The position numbers were made by a program, and so were the translations under genes. From positions 1 to 64,000 of the forward strand of contig NZ_RQJX01000008.1 in assembly GCF_003850045.1 (NCBI RefSeq): a DNA stretch of 64,000 bases, given 5' to 3'. Numbering within the stretch: position 1 is the stretch's first letter; the number at the start of each line of letters is the position of its first letter. Source of the stretch: Aeromicrobium camelliae. GTDB lineage: Bacteria; Actinomycetota; Actinomycetes; Propionibacteriales; Nocardioidaceae. Shown here piece by piece: positions 45,172 to 61,262 of this stretch. The notes beneath the pieces were generated by a model, which searched no databases, was not told where the DNA came from, and was given only the letters and a program-made list of their open reading frames with translations.

Positions 45172-48100
45172 TCAGCGGCGCACTCGCTGCGTCATGAGCG
45201 CACCGCCACCGAGCAGTGCGATCAGTCCGGCGAGCACCAGCCACAGCGCTGAGTCCGGCGCACCGGCATCGGGCAGCTCCGCGACGAGCACCCGCACCGA
45301 GTCGTCGGTGCCGATCGGATCGCCGCCGGGCGGCGTTCCGGTAGCCGTCGCGTGATTGTCGACGTAGCCACGCTCACGGTCGGCCTCGGTCGGCGTGTAG
45401 GTCGCGGTCGCCGTGACCTTCTCACCCGGAGCCAGGACACCGGCCTCGCCCGGCCAGTCGCGGTAGGTGATCTTCGACAGGCCCTCGAGCCCGTCGCGCA
45501 CTTGCACGTCAGTGAGGGTCACCGTTCCGGTGTTCTCGACCTCGAACGTGTACCGGATCTGGTCGCCGTCAACCGTGCCGGTCTTCGTCAGCTTCAGTCC
45601 CGGCAGCGCGGGGAGCGGGGTGCGCTCCTCGTCCGGACCGTCGACCGGATCGCCGGTCGGCGGGGTCCCGGTTGCCAGGGCATGGTTGACGACTTCGCCG
45701 CGGTCGATGTCGGCCTGGGTCAGCGTGTAGGTGGCGGTCGCCGTGACGCTCTCGCCGGGGGCGAGGACGCTCTCGTCGCCGGGCCAGACGTACTCGAGGT
45801 CGGACAGACCCTCGAGCTCGTCGGCGATCGACACGTCGCGCAGCGTCACGTTGCCGGTGTTGGTCGCCTCGAAGGTGTAAGTGACGGTGTCACCAGCCTT
45901 CGACGCAGCACCCGCATTCAGCGTCGCGGTCTTGACCAGAGCGATGCTCGGACCCGCCTCGATCGGAACCGAGACCTCGTCGATGTCGTCGACCCGCTCA
46001 CCCGCCGGCGGCTGACCCGACGCGGTAGCGACGTTGTCGACCGAGCCAGCATCGACATCAGCCTGCGTCAGCGTGTAGGTCGCCGTCGCCGTCACCGACT
46101 CGCCGTAACCCAGCACACCCTCAGCAGTCGGCCAAGGACCGAACACGATGTCCGACAGACCCGCCAGCTCATCGCTGAGCGCCACGTCGGTGAGCGTCAC
46201 ATTGCCCGTGTTGGTGATCGTGAACTCGTACTCCACGGTGTCACCAGCGCGACCCTCCGCACCCTCGGCAAGCGCACCGGACTTCACCAGATCGATCGAC
46301 GCGAGCTGCGGCAGCGGCAACTCATGATCGTCCTCGTTCTCCACCGGAGGCTGACCACCAGGAGGCGTGCCCACGACCGTGGCGTTGTTGACCACATCAC
46401 CGCGGTCGATGTCCGCCGCCGTCAACGTGTACTCGGCCGTCGCCGTCACCGACTCACCCGGAGCCAGCACACCAACCTCACCCGGCCACGTGTAGACGAG
46501 CTCGGACAGCCCCTCCATCGGATCGGTGATCGACACACCCGTCAACGTCACATTGCCGGTGTTCGTCGCGGTGAACTCGTACTCCACCGTGTCACCGGGG
46601 ACAACCTGCGCCCCATCGGCGAGACCGCCGGACTTCACCAGATCGATGCCCGGATTCGACGGCACATCCACACGCTCGGTGTCGTCGTCCTCGACCGGAT
46701 CACCGGACGGCGGCGTACCCACGACCGAAGCCGTGTTATCGACACCACCGGCATCGACGTCGGACTGCTTCAGCTCATACGTCGCCGTCGCGGTCACGGA
46801 CTCGCCGGGCAACAGCGTCCCCGCCTCATCCGGCCACGTGCCGAAGACGATGTCGGACAGGCCGTCGAGCTCATCGCTCAGTGCCACATCGGTCAACGTC
46901 ACGTTACCGATGTTCGTGACCGTGAACTCGTACTCCACCGTGTCACCAGCGCGACCCTCCGAACCCTCGGCGAGCGCACCGGACTTCACCACCTCGATGA
47001 GCGGCAACTCAGGAAGGTCGACGATGTGCTCGTCGGTGTTGTCCACCGGGTCGCCGGACGGCGGCGTGCCAGTCGCGGTGACCGTGTTCTCCACCTCACC
47101 GGTGTCGAGATCGGCCTGCGTCAGCTCGTACGTGGCGGTCGCCGTCACCGACTCACCCGGCTGCAGCGTGCCTGCCTCACCCGGCCAGTCGCCGAACACG
47201 ATCTCAGACAGACCCTCCAGCGGGTCATCCAGCGTCACGTCAGCCAATGTCACGTTGCCCGTGTTCGTCACCGTGAACTCGTACTCCACGGTGTCACCCG
47301 CGACACCCTCAGAACCTTCACGCAGGGCGCCGGTCTTCTCGACGTCGATCGCGGGGGACTGTGCCACCGGAACCTGAGCGTCGTCGGTGTCAGTGACCGG
47401 ATCGCCGCTCGGCGGCGTGCCTGTGGCGGTCGCCACGTTGTCGACGCCACCGGCGTTCACGTCGGCCTGCGTCAGCGTGTACGTGGCGGTCGCCGTGACC
47501 GACTCACCCGGCTGCAGCATCCCGGCCTCACCCGGCCAATCACCGAACACGATGTCCGACAGGCCCTCCAGCTCATCGCTGAGCGCCACCTCGGTCAACG
47601 TCACGTTCCCAGTGTTGGTGATCGTGAACCCGTACTCCACGGTGTCGCCCGCAACACCCTGCGCGCCCTCGGCGAGCGCACCGGACTTCACCAGGTCGAT
47701 GGCCGACGCCTGCGGCACATCGACGACGTGATTGTCGGTGTTCTCCACCGGATCGCCGCTCGGCGGCGTGCCCGTCGCGGTCACCGTGTTCTCGACCTGG
47801 CCGGCGTTCACATCGGCCTGCGTCAGCTCGTACGTGGCGGTTGCCGTGACCGACTCACCCGGCTCCAGCACCCCGGCCTCACCCGGCCAGTCACCGAACA
47901 CGATCTCGGACAGACCCGGCAGCGGATCGTCCAACGTCACGCCCGTAAGCGTCACGTTCCCGGTGTTCGTCACCATGAACTCGTACTCCACCGTGTCGCC
48001 CGCACGTCCCTGCGCACCCTCGGCAAGCCCACCGGACTTCACCACATTGATCGATGCATCGGGGGTGATCGTGACGATCTCCTTGTCGGTGTTCTCCACT

Positions 48101-50625
48101 GGATCGCCGCTCGGCGGCGTGCCCGTCGCGGTCACCGTGTTCTCGACCTGGCCGGCGTTCACATCGGCCTGCGTCAACTCGTACGTGGCGGTCGCCGTGA
48201 CCGACTCGCCCGGAGCCAGCACCCCAGCCTCACCCGGCCAATCACCGAACACGATGTCCGACAGACCTGGCAGCGGATCGTCCAACGTCACGTCGGTGAG
48301 CGTCACGTTGCCCGTGTTCGTCACCGTGAACTCGTACTCCACGGTATCACCGGCGCGACCCTCCGCGCCGTCAGCGAGCGCACCGGACTTCACGACATCA
48401 AGCGCGGGCGCCTGCGGCACCTCGACGATTTCCTCGGCGGTGTCGGTCACCGGGTCACCCGTCGGGGGCGTGCCCGTGGCGGTGGCCGTGTTCTCGACCT
48501 GCCCGGCATCCACGTCGGCCTGCGTCAACTCGTACGTGGCGGTCGCCGTGACCGACTCGCCCGGAGCCAGCACCCCAGCCTCACCCGGCCAGTCACCGAA
48601 CACGATGTCCGAGAGCCCCTCGAGTTCATCGCTCAGCGCCACGTCGGTCAACGTCACGTTACCCAGGTTGCTGATGGTGAACTGGTACTCCACCGTGTCG
48701 CCGGCAACGCCCGGCGAACCGGCTGCGAGGGCCCCGTTCTTCACGAGGTCGATGAGCGGCTGCTGCGGCACCTCGACAATCTCCTCGTCGGTGTCGGTCA
48801 CCGGGTCACCCGTCGGGGGCGTGCCCGTGGCGGTGGCCGTGTTCTCGACCTGGCCGGCGTTCACATCGGCCTGCGTCAACTCGTACGTGGCGGTCGCCGT
48901 GACCGACTCACCCGGAGCCAGCACCCCGGCCTCACCCGGCCAATCACCGAACACGATCTCGGACAGACCCGGCAGCGGGTCATCCAGCGTCACGCCCGTA
49001 AGCGTCACGTTGCCCGTGTTCGTCACCGCGAACTCGTACTCCACCGTGTCGCCCGCGACACCCTGCGCACCCTCGGCAAGCCCACCGGACTTCACCACGT
49101 CGATCGCTGCATCCGGCGCAACCGGAACCTGAGCGTCATCCGTGTCGGAAACCGGATCACCGAACGGCGGCGTGCCGACAGCGGTCACCGTGTTGTCGAC
49201 GCCACCTGTGTTCACATCGGCCTGCGTCAGCTCGTACGTCGCGGTCGCCGCGACGCTCTCGCCCGGAGCCAGCACACCGGCCTCACCCGGCCAGTCACCG
49301 AACACGATCTCGGACAGACCCGGCAGCGGATCGTCCAACGTCACGTCGGTGAGCGTCACATTCCCGGTGTTCGTCACCGTGAACCGATACTCCACCGTGT
49401 CGCCCGCGACACCCTGCGCACCCTCGGCGAGGGCACCGGACTTCTCGACCTGGATCGACGGCGCCAGCTCCGGCAGCGTGACCTCGGCGGGATCCTCGTC
49501 GCTGACAGGAGAACCAGCCGGCGGCTGACCTGTGACTGTCGCGGTGTTCGTGACGGTGCCGGCGGCGATGTCCTCGGCTGTGAGCTCGTAGGTCGCCGTC
49601 GCCGTGACCGACTCACCCGGCTCCAGCACCCCGGCCTCGCCCGGCCATGCACCGAACGTGATGCCCGACAGACCTGGCTTCGGGTCGTTCAAGGTCACGT
49701 CGGTCAGGGTGATCGAGCCGGTGTTGGTGATCGTGAAGTCATACTCGACGATGTCGCCGGGAAGACCCACTGCCCCGTCGGCCAGCACGCCGTCCTTCAC
49801 CAGCTCGATGGTGGCGCAGGTGTCGTTGATGATCTGGGTCAAGGTGTCCCGCAGATCGCTGAAGCCCGTAGCGAAGTAATCGCTGTTCTCAACCGTGCCC
49901 GAGACCTGAGCGATATGCTCGCGGAACTGGTCCAGCGCACCGCCCGACAGATTGTCAGTCGCGCCGACACCGATGATGCGTGTGCCCTGGGCCTTGACCG
50001 CGTTGGCGCTTTCCACCGCGCGAGTGATCGACGGCACATCCGTGGAACCGCCGGGACCTTGGGCCGGCGATCCGTACTGCGTCGGGTTGCCGTCCGTCAC
50101 GAAAAGCAAGGCGTCGTACTGCTCGGGAGCCGATGCGATCGCCGCGAACGCGCGATCCCAGTTCGTGCCGCCTCGCTGCGAGTTGGGCCGCTGAATGCCG
50201 TTCACCTTGTCCGCGATGGTCTGGGAGCCCTGGGGCGTCATGACCGAGGTCAAAGGAAGGGGCGCGTTAGCCGGCGAACCCGTCGCGGGGGCGTTCGAGG
50301 CGAACGTGTGGATGGCGATCTGAACCGGATATCCGGTCAGCCCGGCCGCGAACTCCGCGATGTTGGACTTCATCTCTGCAAGCTGACCGTCAGTCACCGA
50401 GTTCGACAGGTCGAGACTGATCGCGAGCTTCAGATCCGGCTCACAGCGTTCAGGAAGACTCGGATTCGGAGCCGGGGGCGTCGTCGACTGGACCGCGCCG
50501 GCGGCGGTGATGCTGCCCATGACCGCGACCAGCATCGCCAACATGAGGGCGATGGCGCGGCGGGGCCAGCGGAGGTGGCGCCTGCGAGAGGCATGATTCG
50601 GCCTGGACCGAGAAGTGGACGTCAC
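45172..50625 (-). CDS. Giant sortase-anchored surface protein: VWA domain plus 13 DUF11/DUF7507-like repeats
   Basis: This is an 1817-residue cell-surface protein. It has a long basic N-terminus and signal helix (about residues 24-45, ending near AAGA). A von Willebrand A domain spans about residues 65-260, with MIDAS motif DLSNS, a GTNWDRAF loop and VTDGNPT. Thirteen repeats of about 116 residues follow (about residues 272-1775). Each repeat has the core [22 protein letters not shown], then [27 protein letters not shown]. The C-terminus has the sortase-like signal LPDAG near residue 1783, a membrane segment and a basic end. Start GTG at 50625 was chosen because AAGGAG lies 9 bases upstream. 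A role in adhesion is inferred. Confidence 0.9.
45290..49815 (-). repeat. Thirteen tandem coding repeats of about 348 bp
   Basis: The DNA encoding the 13 surface-protein repeats is itself highly repetitive, with long near-identical blocks between copies, for example the recurring GTGACCGACTCACCCGG segment on the plus strand. Copies 2 to 9 are most alike, and copies 1, 10, 12 and 13 more diverged. Such arrays change copy number by recombination and are hard to assemble from short reads, so the copy number seen here may not be exact. Confidence 0.9.
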
Positions 50626-50740
50626 GGTGCTGCTCTCCTTGCACGGGCGGTGGGGAGTACCGCGGCAAACCGCGGCAGGACACAGCAGGGCTGCATGCCA
50701 TAGTTCATCATTCATCCTCACACCGCGGCCGCTGCCCCGA

Positions 50741-51177
50741 ATGCTGGGATTTCACCCTCATTTTCACCCCCCTCGCTTCCCCTGGTCCCTCCTTCTCGCG
50801 AGCCTCGTACTCAACCTCGTGTACGCGGCGGTGCCAGGCGCACTGATTCCCGCGCAGATCGCCGACGCGTCATCGGACAGCAAAGCGATCCGGCTCGCGC
50901 TCGTCATGACCCTCTCGCCGCTGGTGACGATCGTCGTGCATCCCCGGGTCGGACTCGTGTCACTCGACAACGCCGTCTCGCTGCTGATGATCGCCGGGCG
51001 CCGGCCGTCGCGGGAGCGGCACTCACCACGACCGGCGGCTCATTTCTCGCCTACGCTGCGGTGGGGGTAGCCCTGTCGGCGCTGTTCATCGCGCGGATCT
51101 TCCCCAAGGGAACGAGTCCGCCACGGGTCATCACCGGGGACGGTCACCGTGCTCGTCAGGCGAGGCGCCTACGGTGA
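50741..51177 (+). pseudogene. Decayed MFS transporter gene (internal deletion and frameshift)
   Basis: From ATG at 50741 the frame reads the first transmembrane part of an MFS protein: SLLLASLVLNLVYAAVPGALIPAQIAD, then ALVMTLSPLVTIVVHP. Around 50990-51010 the coding signal shifts to another frame, which reads AVAGAALTTTGGSFLAYAAVGVALSALFIARIFPKG, a last MFS segment and its C-terminal end, with a stop at 51175-51177. The middle ten or so segments are missing. I see no intact gene in this interval (50626-51155). It is read as a remnant of a transporter gene. Confidence 0.7.
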
Positions 51178-52754
51178 CCGTCGCGGGCCAGGATTCCCAT
51201 CGCGAGTCCCCGGGCGATCGCCTCATCGCGGCGGTTCACGCCCAGCTTGCGGTACAGCGAACGTCGTTGCGTCTTGATCGTATTGACCGACAGTTGCAGG
51301 CGCGCAGCGATGTCGTTCTCCGTGCCTCCCCGCACCAGTTCGCTGAGCACGATCCGCTCACGTTCGGTCAGTCGTTCGACCTGGATGTCACCGCCGAGTA
51401 ACGGCTCTGGCGTCTGCTGACCGGTCAGTTCAGCGAACACTGCGGCGTCGGCAGGAGAAAGGAGCCGCAAGGGCCAGGTGACGCCGTCGGCTTCCATCTT
51501 CTCCACCATCCGCTCGGCCACGAGACGTAGTGACGATCTCGAGCCGAGCCGGCGGACCAGCGCGAACTCCACAACGGCGGCGTGCAGCCGCAACCGCGGC
51601 GTCGCCCCGATGCCGGCCTGGCTGATGCGAGCGATCAGTTCACGCATGCGGTCGATGTCGCCCGATGCGACGCCCGCGTGCGCCGACGCCAGGACCGCGG
51701 GAAGTCGTGAGCCCTCCGTCGTCATGGCCTTCGACGGTGGCCCGATGATCAGCATCATGCCCTCGACCACGTCGGTCAGCGCTCTCGAGAGTGGGCGCGC
51801 GCGTTGACAGGCCGTGAGCAGGTTGGCGGCGTCGCGGAACCGGCCGGACGTGAGCATGACGATCGCGCGGACGAGCATGACGATGTCGCGATGGTCTCCG
51901 GACGCCTCGGCCTCGGCAATCGCACGCTGAGCGGCATCGATCCGTCCCTGTTCGAGGGCGAGCAGAGCGTCGACAGCGGCGAGGAGATCCGACCATGGAG
52001 CGCGGCGGGCCATCGTGGAGCAGGCGCGTCGACGACGCGTGGCGGCATGAACGTTGCCGAGCACGAGCTCCGTGAGGGCCGCCGCGGCTCCGAGCGCAGC
52101 CTGCCACCAACCCCCGTTCGCCGTCTCGAGGCCTCGTTCGAAGACCGTGCGAGCGTGGAACACCCGACCGTCGTGCAACAGCGCCATGCCGCACTCGGCA
52201 TGAAGGGCTGGGAGCCAGGCAGACAGCGCCTCCCGGTCGCCGCGTCCGAGATCGTGAAGCATGCTGTCGAGGGACACTGCTGTCATGACACCGCCGGGGC
52301 GGGCGAGACGCCGCTCTACGGCGCATCGCAGGCCTCGTGCGAGCGCTCGGTCCACGACCGTGCGCCGGTGGTCCCGGTCGTTCCACGGCGCACGGAGAAG
52401 ATCAGGGGCCACCGGGTGCGTGCGCTGCTGCACCGCGAGGGCGACGAGCGTCCATCGCAGGGCCGGGAAGCTGCCGATCTCGACGGGAGGCGCAGCGACC
52501 CATCGGGCGAGGACTTCCGGATGATCGAGTGCAAGCGGGAGCCCGACATCTCGAAGAACCTGTTCCGCCCGCTCCGGATCCGCGGACCGCGCAGCGGCAC
52601 GCAGGCGTTCGAGCGCGACCGCGTCATCGCGATCCCCGTCAAGCGCGCCCAACCTTCGGGCTCCTGCCCCGCGCAACACCCTCCAGGCCTCCGCGGTGAG
52701 CCGCTCCGGTTCGTCGATCACCAGCACGAGGGGACCTTCGGTCTCGTATCGCAT
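51156..52754 (-). CDS. LuxR-family regulator with large helical middle domain, no visible P-loop
   Basis: This 532-residue regulator has a C-terminal LuxR helix-turn-helix (LTERERIVLSELVRGGTENDIAARLQLSVNTIKTQRRSLYRKLGV, about residues 465-510). The middle is a long, Ala-rich, TPR-like helical region as in MalT/LAL-type regulators. The N-terminus, GPLVLVIDEPERLTAEAWRVL, looks like the Walker B part of a STAND ATPase, but the Walker A loop expected about 80-100 residues before it is absent. Either the gene is truncated at its 5' end or it works without ATP. It is divergent from the sigma factor gene, which may be its target or partner. Confidence 0.75.
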   Translation of the reverse strand: MRYETEGPLVLVIDEPERLTAEAWRVLRGAGARRLGALDGDRDDAVALERLRAAARSADPERAEQVLRDVGLPLALDHPEVLARWVAAPPVEIGSFPALRWTLVALAVQQRTHPVAPDLLRAPWNDRDHRRTVVDRALARGLRCAVERRLARPGGVMTAVSLDSMLHDLGRGDREALSAWLPALHAECGMALLHDGRVFHARTVFERGLETANGGWWQAALGAAAALTELVLGNVHAATRRRRACSTMARRAPWSDLLAAVDALLALEQGRIDAAQRAIAEAEASGDHRDIVMLVRAIVMLTSGRFRDAANLLTACQRARPLSRALTDVVEGMMLIIGPPSKAMTTEGSRLPAVLASAHAGVASGDIDRMRELIARISQAGIGATPRLRLHAAVVEFALVRRLGSRSSLRLVAERMVEKMEADGVTWPLRLLSPADAAVFAELTGQQTPEPLLGGDIQVERLTERERIVLSELVRGGTENDIAARLQLSVNTIKTQRRSLYRKLGVNRRDEAIARGLAMGILARDGHRRRLA

Positions 52755-52861: not shown

Positions 52862-52874
52862 TATAAGTTATACT
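52862..52874. promoter_or_regulatory. AT-rich divergent promoter between luxR-type and sigma factor genes
   Basis: TATAA-g-TTATA (52862-52872) is a perfect palindrome in an otherwise very GC-rich area. Reading right, TATACT (52869-52874) is a good -10 hexamer for the sigma gene. Reading left, TATAAC or TATATC could serve the LuxR gene. It lies 107 bases from one start codon and 93 from the other. Overlap suggests shared, mutually exclusive control. Confidence 0.5.
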
Positions 52875-52967
52875 CATGGCGGTCCGCCCAGAGCTACCGT
52901 GGTACGGCGCCACGGGAAAGCGTCCACCGTCGGCGTGCGCACCTTCTTTCCTACCTGGAGATCGGAC

Positions 52968-54578
52968 ATGACCGAACCCTGGGGCCTCCGCGACGGCCTC
53001 GTCGAGGACCGCGACCTGGTGGAAGCCCTGCGCGCCGGGGACGCGGGCGCCATGGAAGCCCTCTACCGCCGGCATGGCCCATCGATGCGGCGCCTCGCCT
53101 ACGCTCTCGATCCCGATCGCGGGGACGATCTCGTGGCCGAGGCGTTCTCCCGGGTCTTCGACACGATACGTGCAGGCAGGGGCCCGCTCGATAACGTGGC
53201 CGGTTACCTCGCCACCACCGTGCGGCATCTGCACGTCGATCAATCGCGCGCGCGAAGACGCGAACTACCCGTCTCCGACCGGCCCTGGCTACTCGACGAT
53301 GCGACCGAGGTGGAACTGCTCGATCCGATCGACCTGGAACGGGCCGGGCAAGCGCTCTCCGCACTGCCAGAGCGCTGGCGCGAGGTGCTCTGGTACTTGG
53401 AGGTCGAGGGACGAAAACCCGCTGAGGTCGCGCTCCGGCTCGGGATGCCGGCGCCACGCGTCTCGGCCCTCGCCTACCGGGCGCGCGAGGGCTTGCGCCG
53501 CAGCTATCTCGACCGCCACCTGACGGCCGCCGCGACACGCACATGCCGGTGGACGCGCGAACGACTCAGCTCATTCGTCCGAGGCGGTCTGAGCGACGCG
53601 GCGCAGGACAGGGTGCGCCGCCATCTCGACTCGTGCAATGCGTGTCTCCTCGAGCACGGGTCACTTGTCGAGGTGAACACCCGGCTCGGCATCTGGTTCT
53701 GGCCGCTCGCGGTGACCGGCTTCACTGTCTTGCGACCGGAGTTGTGGCCGAAGGGCTTGGTCGCCGCGGACGCTGTCGGCGGTGCGCCCGGGCGCACCCC
53801 GCGACGCGCCCCCAGAGCTAAGCGAGTGCTGACGAAACGCTCCCATCTCATGATCGGCGTGGGCGCGGTCATCGCAGTCATCGTCGTTGCGGCCGTCACT
53901 GCGCTGGCACCCACGGTGCCGATCGAAGCCGATGCGGCACCTCCTGGGGCAGAAGGCCTCGACGAGGCTCCGCCGAGGGGCAGTGAACCGTCGTGGCCGG
54001 AACTGACGGGAGACGATCTCGCAGCTGCATCCCCGCGGAGCGAACCCGACGCAACCGCCCCTGAGCTCGCCTCGCGCCCGGTCCGCACTGCACAGCCCCC
54101 CGTCGAGCGCGCTGCTCCCGCAGGCCGCGCATCCGCCCAGAGCCCCCAGCCCCGTCCCACGGCGCCCGCCCCCGGAGGTGGGAACGAGCCTGAACCGCGG
54201 CCCGGTGTGATCAGAACGCTCGCCTTCGAGTCCGCAACCCTGCGCTCGTCGGCTCCGGGCTCCAGCGAATGGAGATTGACGCTCAGCCCCACAGGGACGT
54301 ACACCGGACACCTGGAACCCGTGACTCTGGCGGTGTCGTTTCGGATGGATCAGCTCACCGTTTTCACAACGCTGGCATCGACGAGCTGGCGATGCGACGC
54401 GCAGAGTCCGCCCTACCAGTTCGTCGAGATGGCATGCCACACCACGTGGGTGCCCGGCCAGCCGATCGAGCCGTTGTCGGCGCATTTGTCGTCCCTGGAA
54501 TCAGGCAAGGCGCCCAGGGGTGTCGCCCGTCTGTCTCCGGTCGGGGTTCCCGGCGCGACCTCGTCGGCGGCGTTCTGA
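52968..54578 (+). CDS. ECF sigma factor fused to a zinc-finger anti-sigma-like domain, TM helix and extracytoplasmic tail
   Basis: This is a single 536-residue protein. Residues 14-98 form sigma region 2 (LVEALRAGDAGAMEALYRRHG, then DDLVAEAFSRVFDTI). Residues 125-185 form region 4 (ALSALPERWREVLWYLEVEGR, then AREGLRRSY). Residues 193-240 form an anti-sigma zinc-finger-like module with His219, Cys223 and Cys226 (RRHLDSCNAC). One membrane helix lies at about 293-315, then a proline-rich stretch and a C-terminal domain of about 120 residues outside the cell. Start ATG at 52968 follows GGAG. ECF groups with fused C-terminal extensions are known; release from the membrane would need proteolysis or induced change. 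Targets are unknown. Confidence 0.85.
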   Translation: MTEPWGLRDGLVEDRDLVEALRAGDAGAMEALYRRHGPSMRRLAYALDPDRGDDLVAEAFSRVFDTIRAGRGPLDNVAGYLATTVRHLHVDQSRARRRELPVSDRPWLLDDATEVELLDPIDLERAGQALSALPERWREVLWYLEVEGRKPAEVALRLGMPAPRVSALAYRAREGLRRSYLDRHLTAAATRTCRWTRERLSSFVRGGLSDAAQDRVRRHLDSCNACLLEHGSLVEVNTRLGIWFWPLAVTGFTVLRPELWPKGLVAADAVGGAPGRTPRRAPRAKRVLTKRSHLMIGVGAVIAVIVVAAVTALAPTVPIEADAAPPGAEGLDEAPPRGSEPSWPELTGDDLAAASPRSEPDATAPELASRPVRTAQPPVERAAPAGRASAQSPQPRPTAPAPGGGNEPEPRPGVIRTLAFESATLRSSAPGSSEWRLTLSPTGTYTGHLEPVTLAVSFRMDQLTVFTTLASTSWRCDAQSPPYQFVEMACHTTWVPGQPIEPLSAHLSSLESGKAPRGVARLSPVGVPGATSSAAF

Positions 54579-54746: not shown

Positions 54747-55394
54747 TCAGGCGGACGGTCGGCGGCGGGCGAGGATGACGGCCGCTGCTCCGATGACGGC
54801 GAGCAGGACGATGATGCCGATGACGAGGCCGAGGTCGGCTCCGCCGTCATCCGCCTCGTCCGCCGTCTCGTGAGCCTCCGGATCGTCGGCCGCGTTGGCG
54901 TCGGAGGCCGGCGCGTGGGCGTCGGCGCGCAGCTGCGCGTCGGCGGCCACGGTGGGCAGGCTCTCGCCGCCCTCCTGGAAGCTCAACGCGACGAAGTCGC
55001 CCTCCTCGAGCACCTGCTCGGACACGCCGGACTGGGCGTACTGCCAGGGCGCGCCGTCGGTGGCCATGTAGAAGGCCCAGTAGGCGTCGGCGGCGGGCAT
55101 GCCGGTGCACGGCTCCGCCTCCTCGTCGGGGAGGCCGTTGACGCGGCAGACGACGCTGTCGCCGTACTCGGCGGTCCCCTCGATCTCGATGCCCGCCATC
55201 GACAGGGCGTCGAGCGCGCGCATGCCGGCGGCGCCCTGGGCGCAGACCGTGGTGGGTGCGCCGGCGAGCGAGCCGTACTCGACGAGGATCGGGATGTCCG
55301 AGGGTCCTTCGCACTGGCCGTGCGCAGCCGCCGGCTGAGCCGTGACGACGAGGCCGGACAGCACGAGGGCCAGGGCGGCGAGCAGACGATTCAC
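54747..55394 (-). CDS. Exported, membrane-anchored DUF4430 (transcobalamin-like) protein
   Basis: This 215-residue protein has a signal peptide (RLLAALALVLSGLVVTAQPAAA), a domain of about 100 residues that fits the DUF4430/transcobalamin C-terminal-like fold (GMRALDALSMAGIEIEGT, then PAADAYWAFYMATDGAPWQYAQSGVSEQVLEEGDFVALSFQEG), an acidic, Ala-rich linker and a C-terminal membrane helix with basic tail (LGLVIGIIVLLAVIGAAAVILARRR). It would display the domain outside the cell. The GTG start at 55394 has AAGGAG upstream and overlaps the S-component stop. Last gene of the riboswitch-controlled ECF operon; a B12 capture role is inferred. Confidence 0.75.
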   Translation of the reverse strand: MNRLLAALALVLSGLVVTAQPAAAHGQCEGPSDIPILVEYGSLAGAPTTVCAQGAAGMRALDALSMAGIEIEGTAEYGDSVVCRVNGLPDEEAEPCTGMPAADAYWAFYMATDGAPWQYAQSGVSEQVLEEGDFVALSFQEGGESLPTVAADAQLRADAHAPASDANAADDPEAHETADEADDGGADLGLVIGIIVLLAVIGAAAVILARRRPSA

Positions 55395-56209
55395 GAGTGA
55401 GGTCTCCTTTCGGGCGCCGGCTCGGCCGGCGGGAGATAACGGGCCCGTCGCGCCGCGCGGCGCAAGGTGGTGAGGATGGCGGGCCCGAGGATGACGATGA
55501 GCAGGGTGTTCGTGATGGCTCGACCAGTGTCCCAGCCGGCCGTCGACGTCAGCAGGGTGTACACGAGGAACCGTTGCAGGTTCTCCAGGACCGGGTCCCC
55601 CGGCACGAACGACAGCGTTCCGCTGTCGACGCCGATGAGGAACGGCCACGAGGACAGGTTCATCAGCATGCCGAACAGATACGCGCAGAAGACGCCGTAG
55701 ACCGCGAGCATCGCGATCTCGGCGCGACCGCTGGCCCGCCGCGGTAGCAGCCCGGCCCCCATCCCGATCCACGCCGAGCAGAGCATCTGGAACGGCAGCC
55801 ACGGCCCCACTCCGGAAGTGAGCAGGGCGGACGCGAACATCGTCGTGCACCCGAGCACGTAGCCGAAGCCCGGCCCGAAGACCCGGCCGGCGAGGATCAG
55901 CAGGAAGAAGACCAGCTCGATGCCGGCGGTCCCGGCGCCGAGTCCGCGCAGGGCGGCGTTGATCGCGGTCAGCACCCCGAGGATCGCGAGCGCCTTGGAG
56001 TCCATGCCGCCCTCGGAGAGCTCGGCCAGGACGACCAGGGCGACGACCGGCAGGAGCACCATGAGGATGAACGGCTGATCGACGCGTTGACCGTCGGAGC
56101 CGGGCTGCACGAGCAGCGGCCAGAGGAACATCATGAGTCCCGCGACCGAGGCCAGCGTCAGCACGAGTGCCGAGCGGCGCGTGACGGGAACGGCGGCGGG
56201 CACGCTCAC
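55391..56209 (-). CDS. ECF transporter S component (substrate-specific), probable cobalamin
   Basis: This 272-residue membrane protein has about seven hydrophobic segments, including GLMMFLWPLLVQP, ALAILGVLTAINAALRGLGAGTAGIELVFFLLILAGRVFGPGFGYVLG and a third block ending in WPFLIG. The GRVFGPGFGYVLG and PRRASGR segments fit actinobacterial S components found with a double-ATPase protein (CbrT-like group). The start GTG at 56209 overlaps the ATPase stop (GTGA). Cobalamin as substrate is inferred from the riboswitch at the head of the operon. Confidence 0.82.
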   Translation of the reverse strand: MSVPAAVPVTRRSALVLTLASVAGLMMFLWPLLVQPGSDGQRVDQPFILMVLLPVVALVVLAELSEGGMDSKALAILGVLTAINAALRGLGAGTAGIELVFFLLILAGRVFGPGFGYVLGCTTMFASALLTSGVGPWLPFQMLCSAWIGMGAGLLPRRASGRAEIAMLAVYGVFCAYLFGMLMNLSSWPFLIGVDSGTLSFVPGDPVLENLQRFLVYTLLTSTAGWDTGRAITNTLLIVILGPAILTTLRRAARRARYLPPAEPAPERRPHS

Positions 56210-57798
56210 AGCAGCGTCCTCTCCACCTGTCCCACCGTGAGCCACTGCGGCCCGAGGACCTTGGACACCTGCGGCGCGAAGGCCGGGGACTCGGCCAGCA
56301 CCCGCTCGACGGGACCGCGCGACACCACCTCACCGTCGGCCATGACGGCGACGGTGTCCGCCACCGTCGCCGCGAACTCCACATCGTGCGTCGACAGGAT
56401 GATGCCGTGCCCGTCCTCGGCGAGACCGCGCAGCACGTCGGCGAGTTCGGCCTTGGCGCGGTAGTCGAGGCCGCGAGTGGGCTCATCGAGTGCGATGACG
56501 CGAGGCCGTGCGGTCAGCACGATCGCGAGTACGAGCGCGAGGCGTTGTCCCTCGGACAGATCGCGCGGGTGGTGAGTGCTGTCGATGCCGGGAGCGAGCC
56601 GGTTGAGCAGCTCGCGGCAGGTCCCGGTAGGCGCGCCAGCCTGCGCGTCCGCGGCAGCGCATTCGTCGGTCACGGTCTCGAGGTACAGCAGGTCGGCCGC
56701 CGTCTGCGGCACGAGGCCGACGAGCATCCGCGCCTCGTCCGCCGTGACCTCGGCGGGATCCACGCCGTCGACTCCGACGCGCACGCGGCCGGAGCGGCGC
56801 GAGCCGGTGCCCTGGATCGCCCACAACAGCGAGGACTTGCCCGATCCGTTGCGGCCCATGACGACGAGGACCTCCCCGGCTCGCAGCGCGATATCGACGT
56901 CGTCCACGGCCCGGGTCGCTCCGTAGGCGACGGTGATGCCCTCAGCCTCGAGCAGCGACGCTCCGGCCGGCTCGGCCCGTCGCGGCGGCGCGGTGAGCAC
57001 GAACGGTTCGGTACGCACGTGCCGACGCGCTTCACGCACCGAAAGCGGCAACGGGTCCCATCCCGCGAGGCGGCCGAGTTCGATGAGCGGCGGGGCGACG
57101 GGAGAGTCCGCGAGCAGGTCCGCGGGCGGTCCGCTGCGCACCGTGCCGTCCTCGACGATCACGAGCTGATCGGCGAAGGGGATAACGCGCTCCATGCGAT
57201 GCTCGGCCAGCACGACGGTGAGCGCGAGGTCGTCGACGAGCCGGGCGATCGTGGCCAGGACGTCCTCGGCGGCGGTGGGATCGAGAGCCGAGGTGGGCTC
57301 GTCCAGCACCAGGACTCGCGGGTGCATCGTGAGGACAGAGCCGATCGCGACCCGCTGCTGCTGACCGCCCGAGAGCGTGCGCAGCGCTCGTTCGCGCAGG
57401 TCCGCCATCCCGAGCAGGTCGAGGGTCTCCTCCACGCGGCGGCGCATCGTGCTCGGCGGGAGACCGAGCTGCTCCATGCCGTAGGCGAGCTCCTCCTCGA
57501 CCGTGTGCGTCACGAAGCCGGCCGCGGGGTCCTGTCCGACGTAGCCGACGAGGTGCGCGAGCTCGCGCGGCGGGCGACCCACGATGGACTCACCGGCGAT
57601 CCGCACGTCACCGCGGAGCACACCTCCGGTGAAGTGCGGGACGAGCCCGTTGAGCATGCCGAGCAGCGTGGACTTGCCTGAGCCGGTACGGCCGGCGACG
57701 AGCGCCAGCTCACCCTCGGGGATGTGCAGGTCGACGTGGTGGAGGGTCGCGGAGGACTCGCCGTCGTAGGCGAACGTGACGTGGCGCAGGTCGATCAT
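56206..57798 (-). CDS. ECF transporter ATPase with two fused nucleotide-binding domains
   Basis: This 530-residue protein has two ABC ATPase domains in one chain. The first has Walker A GRTGSGKST (about residue 37), signature LSGGQQQR and Walker B VLVLDEPTSALD. The second has Walker A GRNGSGKSS (about 308), a variant signature LSEGQR and VIALDEPTRGLD. It powers the T and S components, both encoded with 4-bp overlaps on each side. The altered second signature is a known kind of asymmetry in double-domain ATPases and may leave only one fully active site. The ATG at 57798 is fixed by the fold start. Confidence 0.93.
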   Translation of the reverse strand: MIDLRHVTFAYDGESSATLHHVDLHIPEGELALVAGRTGSGKSTLLGMLNGLVPHFTGGVLRGDVRIAGESIVGRPPRELAHLVGYVGQDPAAGFVTHTVEEELAYGMEQLGLPPSTMRRRVEETLDLLGMADLRERALRTLSGGQQQRVAIGSVLTMHPRVLVLDEPTSALDPTAAEDVLATIARLVDDLALTVVLAEHRMERVIPFADQLVIVEDGTVRSGPPADLLADSPVAPPLIELGRLAGWDPLPLSVREARRHVRTEPFVLTAPPRRAEPAGASLLEAEGITVAYGATRAVDDVDIALRAGEVLVVMGRNGSGKSSLLWAIQGTGSRRSGRVRVGVDGVDPAEVTADEARMLVGLVPQTAADLLYLETVTDECAAADAQAGAPTGTCRELLNRLAPGIDSTHHPRDLSEGQRLALVLAIVLTARPRVIALDEPTRGLDYRAKAELADVLRGLAEDGHGIILSTHDVEFAATVADTVAVMADGEVVSRGPVERVLAESPAFAPQVSKVLGPQWLTVGQVERTLL

Positions 57799-58895
57799 CG
57801 CATCGGCCTCGGTTCTGGAGTCGCGAACGCCGGAACGGCCGCCACGAGGACGGCCGCGATCGCGAGGAGCGAGACCTTCGGTGCGCCGGTGAGCGACGGG
57901 AACGCCGCGGCCGGCGCGACGAACTGCATCAGGACGGCGGCCGCCAGACCGCAGCCGACGGTCAGCCACTCGGCGGAGCGCCAGGGATCAGGCCGGTGCC
58001 GGGTGCGGTGGACGCGGCGGCCGGCACGGTGGAAACCGAGCGCCGCGAGCAGTACGCCGACGGCGAGCATCGGCCACGCGAGCAATCGGGGGGCGGTCTG
58101 GTCGAGGAAGGCGTAGGTGCCCACGCAGAGGCCGAACAGGCCGGCGAGCATGAGGACTCCGGTGACGGCGCGGTCGCGACGAGGAACTCCGCCGCTGCGT
58201 CCGTACCCGCGCGCGTCCATGCCGGCGGCGAGGGTCATGGAACGTTCCAACGCGTCCTCGAGCACCGGCACGACGACGCGCCGCAGCGCTCCCACTCCGG
58301 CACTCGGTTCGCCGCGCAGCCGGCGGGCGCGGCGGACCCGTTGCACGCTCTCGGCGAGCTGGGGGAACACAGCCAACGCGACGACGAGCGCGGTGCCGAC
58401 CTCGTACAGCGCCGGCGGGATCGACGTGAGCAGGCGTTGCGGGTTGGCCAGTGCGTTGGCGGCACCGATGCAGATGATGACGGCGGCGAGCCGCAGACCG
58501 TCGTACAGGCCGGCGAGCACCGAGGACAGCGTGACGTCGCCGAACAGGCGGACGCCACGGACGATGTCGGGCAGCGGGATCTCCGGCAAGGAGAGCAGCA
58601 CCACGTCGTCGGGGGTCGAGCCGCCGCCGAAGACGATCCGATACGCGACGCGCAGGACGACGATGACGAGGCCGAACCACAGGAAGAACCGGAAGGCTCG
58701 GGCCCAGGGGGCCTCGCTGCGACGGCTGACTACGACGAGCCAGGCGACCGCGATCACGAGCAGCAGCACGACGGGATTGGTGGTCGCCGACGCGGCGGCG
58801 GCGAGGGCCAGCGCCCACCCCCACCAGGCACCCGGGTGGAGGTCGCGCGGCAGGGGTCCTCGCTGGACCCGGGCCGGCGCCTCAGTGCTGACCAT
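57795..58895 (-). CDS. ECF transporter T component (EcfT/CbiQ-like transmembrane protein)
   Basis: This 366-residue protein has five or more membrane segments and the two coupling motifs of EcfT: RARRLRGE (about residue 195) and GMDARGYG (about 225). These short Ala-Arg motifs bind the ATPase. The C-terminal 110 residues add two or three more hydrophobic segments. It is the first gene after the cobalamin riboswitch. The order T, double ATPase, S, then DUF4430 forms a complete ECF importer, translationally coupled throughout. Confidence 0.9.
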   Translation of the reverse strand: MVSTEAPARVQRGPLPRDLHPGAWWGWALALAAAASATTNPVVLLLVIAVAWLVVVSRRSEAPWARAFRFFLWFGLVIVVLRVAYRIVFGGGSTPDDVVLLSLPEIPLPDIVRGVRLFGDVTLSSVLAGLYDGLRLAAVIICIGAANALANPQRLLTSIPPALYEVGTALVVALAVFPQLAESVQRVRRARRLRGEPSAGVGALRRVVVPVLEDALERSMTLAAGMDARGYGRSGGVPRRDRAVTGVLMLAGLFGLCVGTYAFLDQTAPRLLAWPMLAVGVLLAALGFHRAGRRVHRTRHRPDPWRSAEWLTVGCGLAAAVLMQFVAPAAAFPSLTGAPKVSLLAIAAVLVAAVPAFATPEPRPMR

Positions 58896-60421: not shown

Positions 60422-61075
60422 TCAATCGGGCGTCGACTTGGAGACCCCGCTCTTGGCCTGCACATTGACCAACTCGCCGATCGCGACGCTGCGGTCGTCG
60501 GTATGGAACAGCTCCGAGCAGGTCAGCAGGGTGAGGAGTTTCTCGGTCGGCTCCTGGCCTTCGGCCTCGGGATCGGGCACGGGCTGCAACGGCCAGGTGG
60601 TGCGGAAGTCGACGCGGATCGAGTTGCCGTCGGTGCGCAGCTTGTAGGTGTAGATGTCGGTACGCGTCTCGATGATGACCTCATCGCCGGGCTTGAGGTC
60701 GGGGAACTTGCGGAACGGTTCGCCGTGGGTGACGCGGTGCGCGGCGAGGACGAGGTTGCCGACCTCACCAGGCCGCGCGCCCTCGGGATACATGCCGACG
60801 CCCTTGGCGAAGGTGGGGTCGTCGAAGCCGAGCAGGATCGGGACGACGTAGTCCTCGCCGAACCGCGGCACGCGGAGCAGGCCCTCGCCGTGGACGACCT
60901 CCTCGCCGCGCTCCCACTGCTGGATGATCGCAGCGTGCTCACGCTTCGCCATGTACGTGGTGCCGAAGTACTGCCAGCCCACATACCCGAGCACGGCGAG
61001 GCCGGCGAGGATCAGCGCCAGACCCAGGGCACCGAGCACTCGACCCGATCTGCGGGGCTTCACGTCCGTACTCAC
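60422..61075 (-). CDS. Class E sortase
   Basis: This 217-residue sortase has a short cytoplasmic N-terminus and a membrane helix (residues 13-35). The catalytic domain has His113 (LVLAAHRVTH), Cys186 (LLTLLTCSEL) and Arg195 (DDRSVAIG), the full triad. Class E enzymes join surface proteins to peptidoglycan, typically at LAxTG; the giant protein encoded at 45172-50625 ends in LPDAG. GTG at 61075 is the proposed start; a GTG at 61063 is also possible and better spaced from AGGGG. The gene is monocistronic before pyrE on the same strand. Confidence 0.88.
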   Translation of the reverse strand: MSTDVKPRRSGRVLGALGLALILAGLAVLGYVGWQYFGTTYMAKREHAAIIQQWERGEEVVHGEGLLRVPRFGEDYVVPILLGFDDPTFAKGVGMYPEGARPGEVGNLVLAAHRVTHGEPFRKFPDLKPGDEVIIETRTDIYTYKLRTDGNSIRVDFRTTWPLQPVPDPEAEGQEPTEKLLTLLTCSELFHTDDRSVAIGELVNVQAKSGVSKSTPD

Positions 61076-61099
61076 GCCCCTAGTGTTCCATTGCTTCCC

Positions 61100-61144
61100 G
61101 CGGTCTGACGAGAGACCGCAAAGTTCAAGAAATTTTTTCTTCAA
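61100..61144 (-). promoter_or_regulatory. AT-rich upstream region of the sortase gene with two inverted repeats
   Basis: GCGGTCT-N6-AGACCGC (61100-61119) is a perfect 7-bp inverted repeat. Next to it lies TTCAAGAAA-ttt-TTTCTTCAA (61124-61144) with one mismatch. The latter is a striking A/T island in this GC-rich genome. They lie just upstream of the sortase start and next to the small RNA promoter on the other strand, so they may be operator or promoter elements. Confidence 0.4.
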
Positions 61145-61149
61145 TCTCC

Positions 61150-61179
61150 TTGCCCCCGTCGTCGCGGCCGGGATACCAT
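61150..61179 (+). promoter_or_regulatory. Promoter of the candidate small RNA
   Basis: TTGCCC (61150-61155) and TACCAT (61174-61179) are spaced by 18 bases and resemble a vegetative -35 and -10 pair. Transcription would start near 61186. The next plus-strand gene starts at 61289, but a strong terminator intervenes. Confidence 0.5.
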
Positions 61180-61185
61180 AGAGCC

Positions 61186-61262
61186 GCAGCAAAGAGGACG
61201 ACTCGCAGCTGCCGACGGCCCGCCGTTTCACCCCCCGAGAACGGCGGGCCGACCTCTTTTCT
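61186..61262 (+). ncRNA. Candidate small RNA ending in an intrinsic terminator with a six-C loop
   Basis: From the promoter the RNA would be about 75 bases. It ends in a perfect 12-bp stem (61216-61227 with 61240-61251) whose loop contains six consecutive C residues, followed by a run of T (CTCTTTT). An outer pairing AAAGAGG (61191-61197) with CCTCTTT (61253-61259) is possible. There is no reading frame in it. The C-rich loop recalls the actinobacterial 6C RNA, which has two such loops; only one is visible here, so this may be a different small RNA or a transcription attenuator. Confidence 0.45.

Follow-up and report, generated by a model that had tools for sequence, protein, structure and literature searches.

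The window (the whole stretch of 64,000 nucleotides analysed here) belongs to a 3.06-Mb genome of the genus Aeromicrobium, labelled G000. On its plus strand it carries a gene for one protein in which an ECF sigma factor is joined to a zinc-binding anti-sigma domain, a membrane helix and a predicted Ig-like outer domain. The following features were located in and around this gene.

45172..50625, minus strand: giant surface protein, 1817 aa from the GTG at 50625, with a signal, a VWA-like domain, 13 DUF7507/DUF11 repeats and an LPDAG anchor
50615-51070, plus strand: MFS transporter gene remnant that lacks a large internal part; what is left aligns with residues 24-70 and 356-394 of the unbroken protein of genome G023
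50750..50769, minus strand: tandem box GGGTGAAAATGAGGGTGAAA, some 125 bp before the start of the surface gene; shuffled window sequence gives an expectation of 0
51156..52754, minus strand: LuxR-type regulator, 532 aa, with a C-terminal GerE HTH (GerE E 2e-12); present in L031, L032 and L033
52839..52872, no strand assigned: conserved ECF-LuxR divergent control region ATCTCACGC-N10-GTGATATAAGTTATA, containing a palindrome at 52862-52872; same pattern in L031-L035
52968..54578, plus strand: fused ECF sigma factor/anti-sigma/membrane/Ig-like protein, 536 aa (ORF, Pfam, 36-homologue alignment)
53061..53261, plus strand: sigma region 2, residues 32-98 (Pfam Sigma70_r2 PF04542, E 9.5e-6, above the gathering cut-off; AF2 helices)
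53340..53489, plus strand: sigma region 4, residues 125-174 (Pfam Sigma70_r4_2 PF08281, E 3.9e-7, above the gathering cut-off)
53544..53645, plus strand: zf-HC2 zinc-binding anti-sigma domain, residues 193-226 (Pfam PF13490, E 3.2e-9, above the gathering cut-off; ligands invariant in 36 homologues)
53847..53909, plus strand: single transmembrane helix, residues 294-314, N-in, C-out (sequence, hydropathy)
53910..54206, plus strand: proline/alanine-rich stalk, residues 315-413 (23 Pro and 19 Ala of 99)
54207..54575, plus strand: outer Ig-like beta-sandwich, residues 414-536 (AF2, Foldseek; invariant C476/C490)
54747-58895, minus strand: operon for an energy-coupling factor transporter (ECF-type, an unrelated use of the name), comprising a secreted membrane-anchored protein, an S component, a double ATPase and a probable T component
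60422..61231, minus strand: sortase (Pfam Sortase, E 4.5e-21), the sole one found in a genome search, about 6 kb from the ECF gene

The ECF open reading frame likely starts at the ATG at 52968, preceded by a GGAG Shine-Dalgarno sequence at 52957-52960, and stops at 54578. An earlier description of this DNA made from its letters (the sequence-only reading) had begun the gene at 52862, which is instead the first base of the palindrome. From the N-terminus the protein runs through sigma region 2, sigma region 4, zf-HC2, a disordered linker, the membrane helix and the Pro/Ala-rich stalk to the C-terminal domain, and Pfam, sequence and hydropathy agree on the single-chain combination of sigma regions, zinc anti-sigma domain, one membrane helix and outer domain proposed in that reading. 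Regions 2 and 4 are present with no region 3 domain, as in ECF sigma factors (TIGR02937, 51.7 bits vs 42.9). The anti-sigma part has the Hx3Cx2C motif, upstream ligand and helical bundle of class I zinc anti-sigma factors, its zinc site being C193-H219-x3-C223-x2-C226 and its AF2 helices covering residues 191-205, 210-222 and 224-254. The AF2 model of the whole sigma/anti-sigma segment is helical, with a pTM of 0.49, so that the placing of sigma against anti-sigma in it is unreliable. A basic segment at residues 280-291, RAPRAKRVLTKR, precedes the membrane helix (positive inside). The protein has only five cysteines, three of them zinc ligands and the other two C476 and C490 of the outer domain, and C193, H219, C223, C226, C476 and C490 are invariant across all 36 aligned homologues. 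No separate anti-sigma gene adjoins the ECF gene; the genome has three zf-HC2 domains, and those elsewhere lie beside a weak SigR-like match on contig C12 and on contig C8. The fused sigma/zinc anti-sigma/membrane architecture is already known and is the layout of the actinobacterial fused ECF groups ECF48, ECF52 and ECF53. Fused sigma/anti-sigma proteins are common in actinobacteria.

The outer domain had been called an unassigned sensor. This still holds at the level of families, as a Pfam search of the domain gave no family match, but its fold can now be assigned. An AF2 prediction from 40 homologous tails, carried out as the sequence-only reading had suggested, gave a seven-stranded beta-sandwich (mean pLDDT 94.9, pTM 0.87). 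The best Foldseek matches were an adhesin CLIPPER domain, the alpha-2-macroglobulin receptor-binding domain, CBMs and cohesins, with weak E-values of which one alone was below 0.001. An Ig-like beta-sandwich is thus confidently predicted, a result that fixes the fold class and not the ligand, and a domain that is widespread among homologues gains a fold. Derivation from a DUF11 (PF01345)/DUF7507 repeat of the adjacent adhesin was considered and rejected, as hhalign found no match between the domain and adhesin-repeat profiles. In homologues of the outer domain DUF11 appears at subthreshold level only (E 0.0056 in the homologue L037, below the cut-off), and a literature search for a sigma factor combined with DUF11 in Microbacterium found none.

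In the LuxR protein of the window no Pfam domain other than GerE exceeds the cut-off. The protein gives no Pfam ATPase match and begins near an apparent Walker B-like strand, VLVIDEPERL, much like a LAL regulator that has been cut short; at such loci several other LuxR proteins reach 750-880 aa.

Homologues and gene neighbourhood

The ECF protein finds matches in 55 of 58 related genomes, several of them weak matches to the sigma domain only, and the fused layout recurs throughout the genus. Both zf-HC2 and sigma region 2 are present in every one of the 36 aligned homologues, so that absence of the zinc finger from orthologues, which the sequence-only reading had named as a refutation, does not hold. 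In those homologues that were inspected, hydropathy or visual reading showed a membrane helix. A 'core' copy of the fused ECF gene, of which L037 is an example, sits beside a SigR-like/RsrA-like pair in most genus genomes. Its tail is homologous to that of the window type by profile comparison (hhalign E 5.8e-16). G000 is without a core copy, its sole other match being the weak one on C12. As a separate observation, the motif CGTGAC-N15/16-TCGTT stands 44-109 bp before the start in 18 of the 22 core copies that neighbour the SigR-like gene (L036-L061, L078), against a background of 0.003 per 220 bp. It is a candidate for an autoregulatory ECF promoter in this genus.

The window protein groups with those of genomes G023, G009 and G032 in a clade of four (support 100/100 in one tree and 96/99 in another), found in four of 49 genus genomes. 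All four have the ECF gene and a LuxR gene in divergent orientation; the LuxR gene at L033 was missed by the gene caller, yet reads open. A giant C-anchored surface gene comes next after LuxR in G023, G009 and G032, and in the window it follows the MFS remnant, in keeping with the divergent LuxR gene and nearby giant adhesin gene described previously. In G023 LuxR is followed by surface gene a, the MFS gene and surface gene b, in that order. It is gene b that the window surface protein resembles most (67% over the first 270 residues), so that loss of gene a and of the greater part of the MFS gene from the window is probable. Transporter genes similar to those at 54747-58895 flank the module in G023, G009 and G032.

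Other ECF clades show related but rearranged neighbourhoods. The ECF gene is divergent from surface genes of 1.1 kaa at L034 and L035, lies in line behind LuxR and surface genes at L073 and L080, faces a surface gene followed by LuxR at L072 (L072/L215), and is divergent from LuxR alone at L093 in Nocardioides. The association of ECF with LuxR and surface genes needs two label changes in one tree and one in a larger tree, with weak deep branches. At G019:C1:2973695-2990974 we also noted a 6440-aa open frame packed with DUF7507 repeats, an exceptionally long surface protein.

The proposed link of the fused ECF to LuxR and an adhesin gene is therefore borne out by the same neighbourhood in all four clade genomes. 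The clade being limited to four of 49 genomes, this conservation partly reflects common descent. The recurrence beside LuxR and giant wall-anchored surface proteins suggests what the fused ECF may control. A literature search on LuxR, sigma factor and adhesin in Aeromicrobium found no relevant paper.

Candidate control sites

The TATAA-g-TTATA palindrome TATAAGTTATA at 52862-52872, previously taken as the promoter, is unique in the window (0.07 matches expected) and lies inside a conserved control region, but the palindrome itself was not found in any orthologous region. What is kept in six loci, between ECF and LuxR or between ECF and a surface gene, is ATCT[C/G][A/G]CGC-N9..15-GTG[A/T] and, after it, a second half-site that is degenerate. 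This pattern was derived from the same loci and matches once elsewhere in 5.4 Mb of strand sequence. The palindrome was also tried as a Crp/GlxR site, which was set aside as a weak lead: the dyad TGTGATGTAGATCACT of L032 is near TGTGA-N6-TCACA, but window and L034 are degenerate. No ECF-type promoter could be recognised upstream of the window's surface, LuxR or ECF genes. The core motif CGTGAC-N15/16-TCGTT, tried as a promoter common to core and module copies, occurs neither at the module loci nor anywhere in the window.

Before the surface gene lies the tandem box, a direct repeat with a period of 11-12 bp. A search of 98 genomes for the exact form GGGTGAAA-N4-GGGTGAAA, allowing a gap of 3-5 bp, finds it twice, ahead of the surface gene of the window and ahead of the ECF gene at L072. 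This candidate operator is rare enough for exact search; allowing two mismatches made the search over the 98 genomes noisy, and two such matches in G000 (C3, C34) lie elsewhere. With a matrix built from ten half-sites, eight of nine large surface genes examined in the four clade genomes score at least 15, and six surface genes from other genomes score at most 3.6 and have no box. Four of these eight sites had helped to define the matrix; of the independent four, three score at least 24 and L213 only 15.1. The a-type boxes of G023, G009 and G032 sit at the LuxR gene end, where coding similarity may contribute. Among 1211 other genes three exceed 20, including the ECF gene of L072, which had itself contributed to the matrix. 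Surface genes of the other ECF/LuxR/surface clusters have no box, that of L072 preceding the ECF gene instead. A further box stands before a DUF7507 surface gene that has its own LuxR neighbour and no ECF gene (G032 L211).

The sequence-only reading had suggested a test for activation of the adhesin promoter. That the sigma factor transcribes the adhesin gene does not follow from the sole conserved element found before the surface genes, the GGGTGAAA tandem, which also occurs away from the ECF gene. Because the box is found at such surface/LuxR loci, it fits LuxR at least as well as a sigma factor. Large activators of the LuxR family (LAL), MalT for example, typically bind direct repeats. SARP-LAL regulators are described as binding direct repeats of the heptameric kind (PMC5930380). 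The GGGTGAAA tandem is more likely a LuxR operator than a sigma promoter.

Proposed mechanism and its rivals

On balance we lean slightly towards a membrane-tethered single-chain ECF that would be inhibited in cis, released by proteolysis, and serve the LuxR/surface-protein module. By analogy with the ECF52-type model (PMC8999054, PMC5826349), from what is established for ECF/anti-sigma pairs and from the architecture itself, the zinc anti-sigma domain, joined by a short linker behind region 4, would hold sigma regions 2 and 4 inactive, while the helix would keep them at the membrane. The outer Ig-like domain, possibly braced by a C476-C490 disulfide, would read an envelope or surface cue from its proline-rich stalk. 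The sigma domain could then come free through a site-1 cut on the outer side, a site-2 cut by the M50 protease that the genome encodes, and trimming of the anti-sigma portion. ECF protein and divergent LuxR would form one module, with LuxR probably acting at the GGGTGAAA tandem before the surface genes and one or more giant sortase-anchored surface proteins as the output, whose expression the ECF may thereby influence. Perhaps, though we consider this doubtful, the switch monitors itself: the Ig-like domain would sense the cell's own wall-anchored layer and, with LuxR at the GGGTGAAA operators, set which giant sortase-anchored adhesins are displayed, in a system assembled more than once from different fused-ECF branches.

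Alternatively, the protein could be an ordinary fused ECF with its regulon elsewhere, its proximity to LuxR and surface genes being that of an accessory island inherited as a block. We regard this as unlikely, although several observations agree with it: the module has no recognisable sigma promoter, it is confined to few genus genomes and stands beside parts of the same transporter operon in the loci seen, its GC3 (0.78) is under that of most local genes, and at G032 L211 box, surface gene and LuxR do without an ECF. One inherited block is, however, insufficient, because ECF copies of other clades adjoin surface and/or LuxR genes in differing orders; the control region kept in six loci also speaks against it.

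A still less probable arrangement has the ECF sigma factor itself drive the surface genes from GGGTGAAA as a -35-like element, with LuxR upstream or in parallel. Nearly all of the strongest box matches fall in genomes that carry the window-type ECF, and the L072 box lies before an ECF gene, as autoregulation would predict. Against this, no constant -10 element follows GGGTGAAA at a fixed spacing, the ECF genes of the window clade have no box upstream, and the tandem repeat is of the kind bound by LAL activators. Least probable is a redox input in which oxidation of C476/C490 or of the zinc site opens the anti-sigma domain without proteolysis; all five cysteines do belong to these two sites, and redox sensing is established for zinc anti-sigma domains such as RsrA. 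Yet the zinc site may serve structure alone, as it does in RsiW (PMC7406223), disulfides of exported Ig-like domains are commonly structural too, and the rest of the outer domain would be left without a role.

Comparison with known fused ECF proteins

The closest likeness to the tethered single-chain ECF preferred here is ECF52 (SCO4117 of Streptomyces coelicolor), which likewise combines sigma factor, zf-HC2, membrane helix, proline-rich stalk and outer domain in one chain (PMC5826349). A truncated SCO4117 behaves as the proteolysis model expects (PMC8999054, PMC5826349), and this best-studied actinobacterial fused ECF has broad effects. The outer domains differ, however, that of ECF52 being an NPCBM carbohydrate-binding module; Pfam finds no NPCBM in the window protein nor in genome G000. 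The sigma-zinc-finger region shares only 34-38% identity with five Streptomyces-like proteins, picked for their ECF52 architecture and not by a group HMM, and the window clade of four (96/99) falls outside theirs. The neighbours here, LuxR and surface genes, also set the locus apart. ECF48 and ECF53 are alike by description, as C-terminal fusions with a zinc finger, one or two membrane helices and an expected proteolytic activation (PMC8999054).

IutY of Pseudomonas putida (ECF243) also unites sigma factor and membrane anti-sigma in one chain and is activated by Prc and RseP proteolysis; it is the sole fused ECF that the review names with experimentally characterised proteolytic activation (PMC8999054). 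It differs in serving iron-starvation surface signalling through an outer-membrane receptor in a Gram-negative organism, with a different anti-sigma type. The Hx3Cx2C zinc module is shared with the class I anti-sigma factors RsrA, ChrR and RsiW, and in known pairs helix 1 contacts sigma 4 and helix 4 sigma 2 (PMC7406223). Unlike these, the anti-sigma domain here is covalently joined behind region 4 of its own partner. The locus offers a small testable module of a one-protein membrane switch, one LuxR, one sortase and a giant surface protein, and what is new in it is the type of outer domain, the clade and the surface-gene module.
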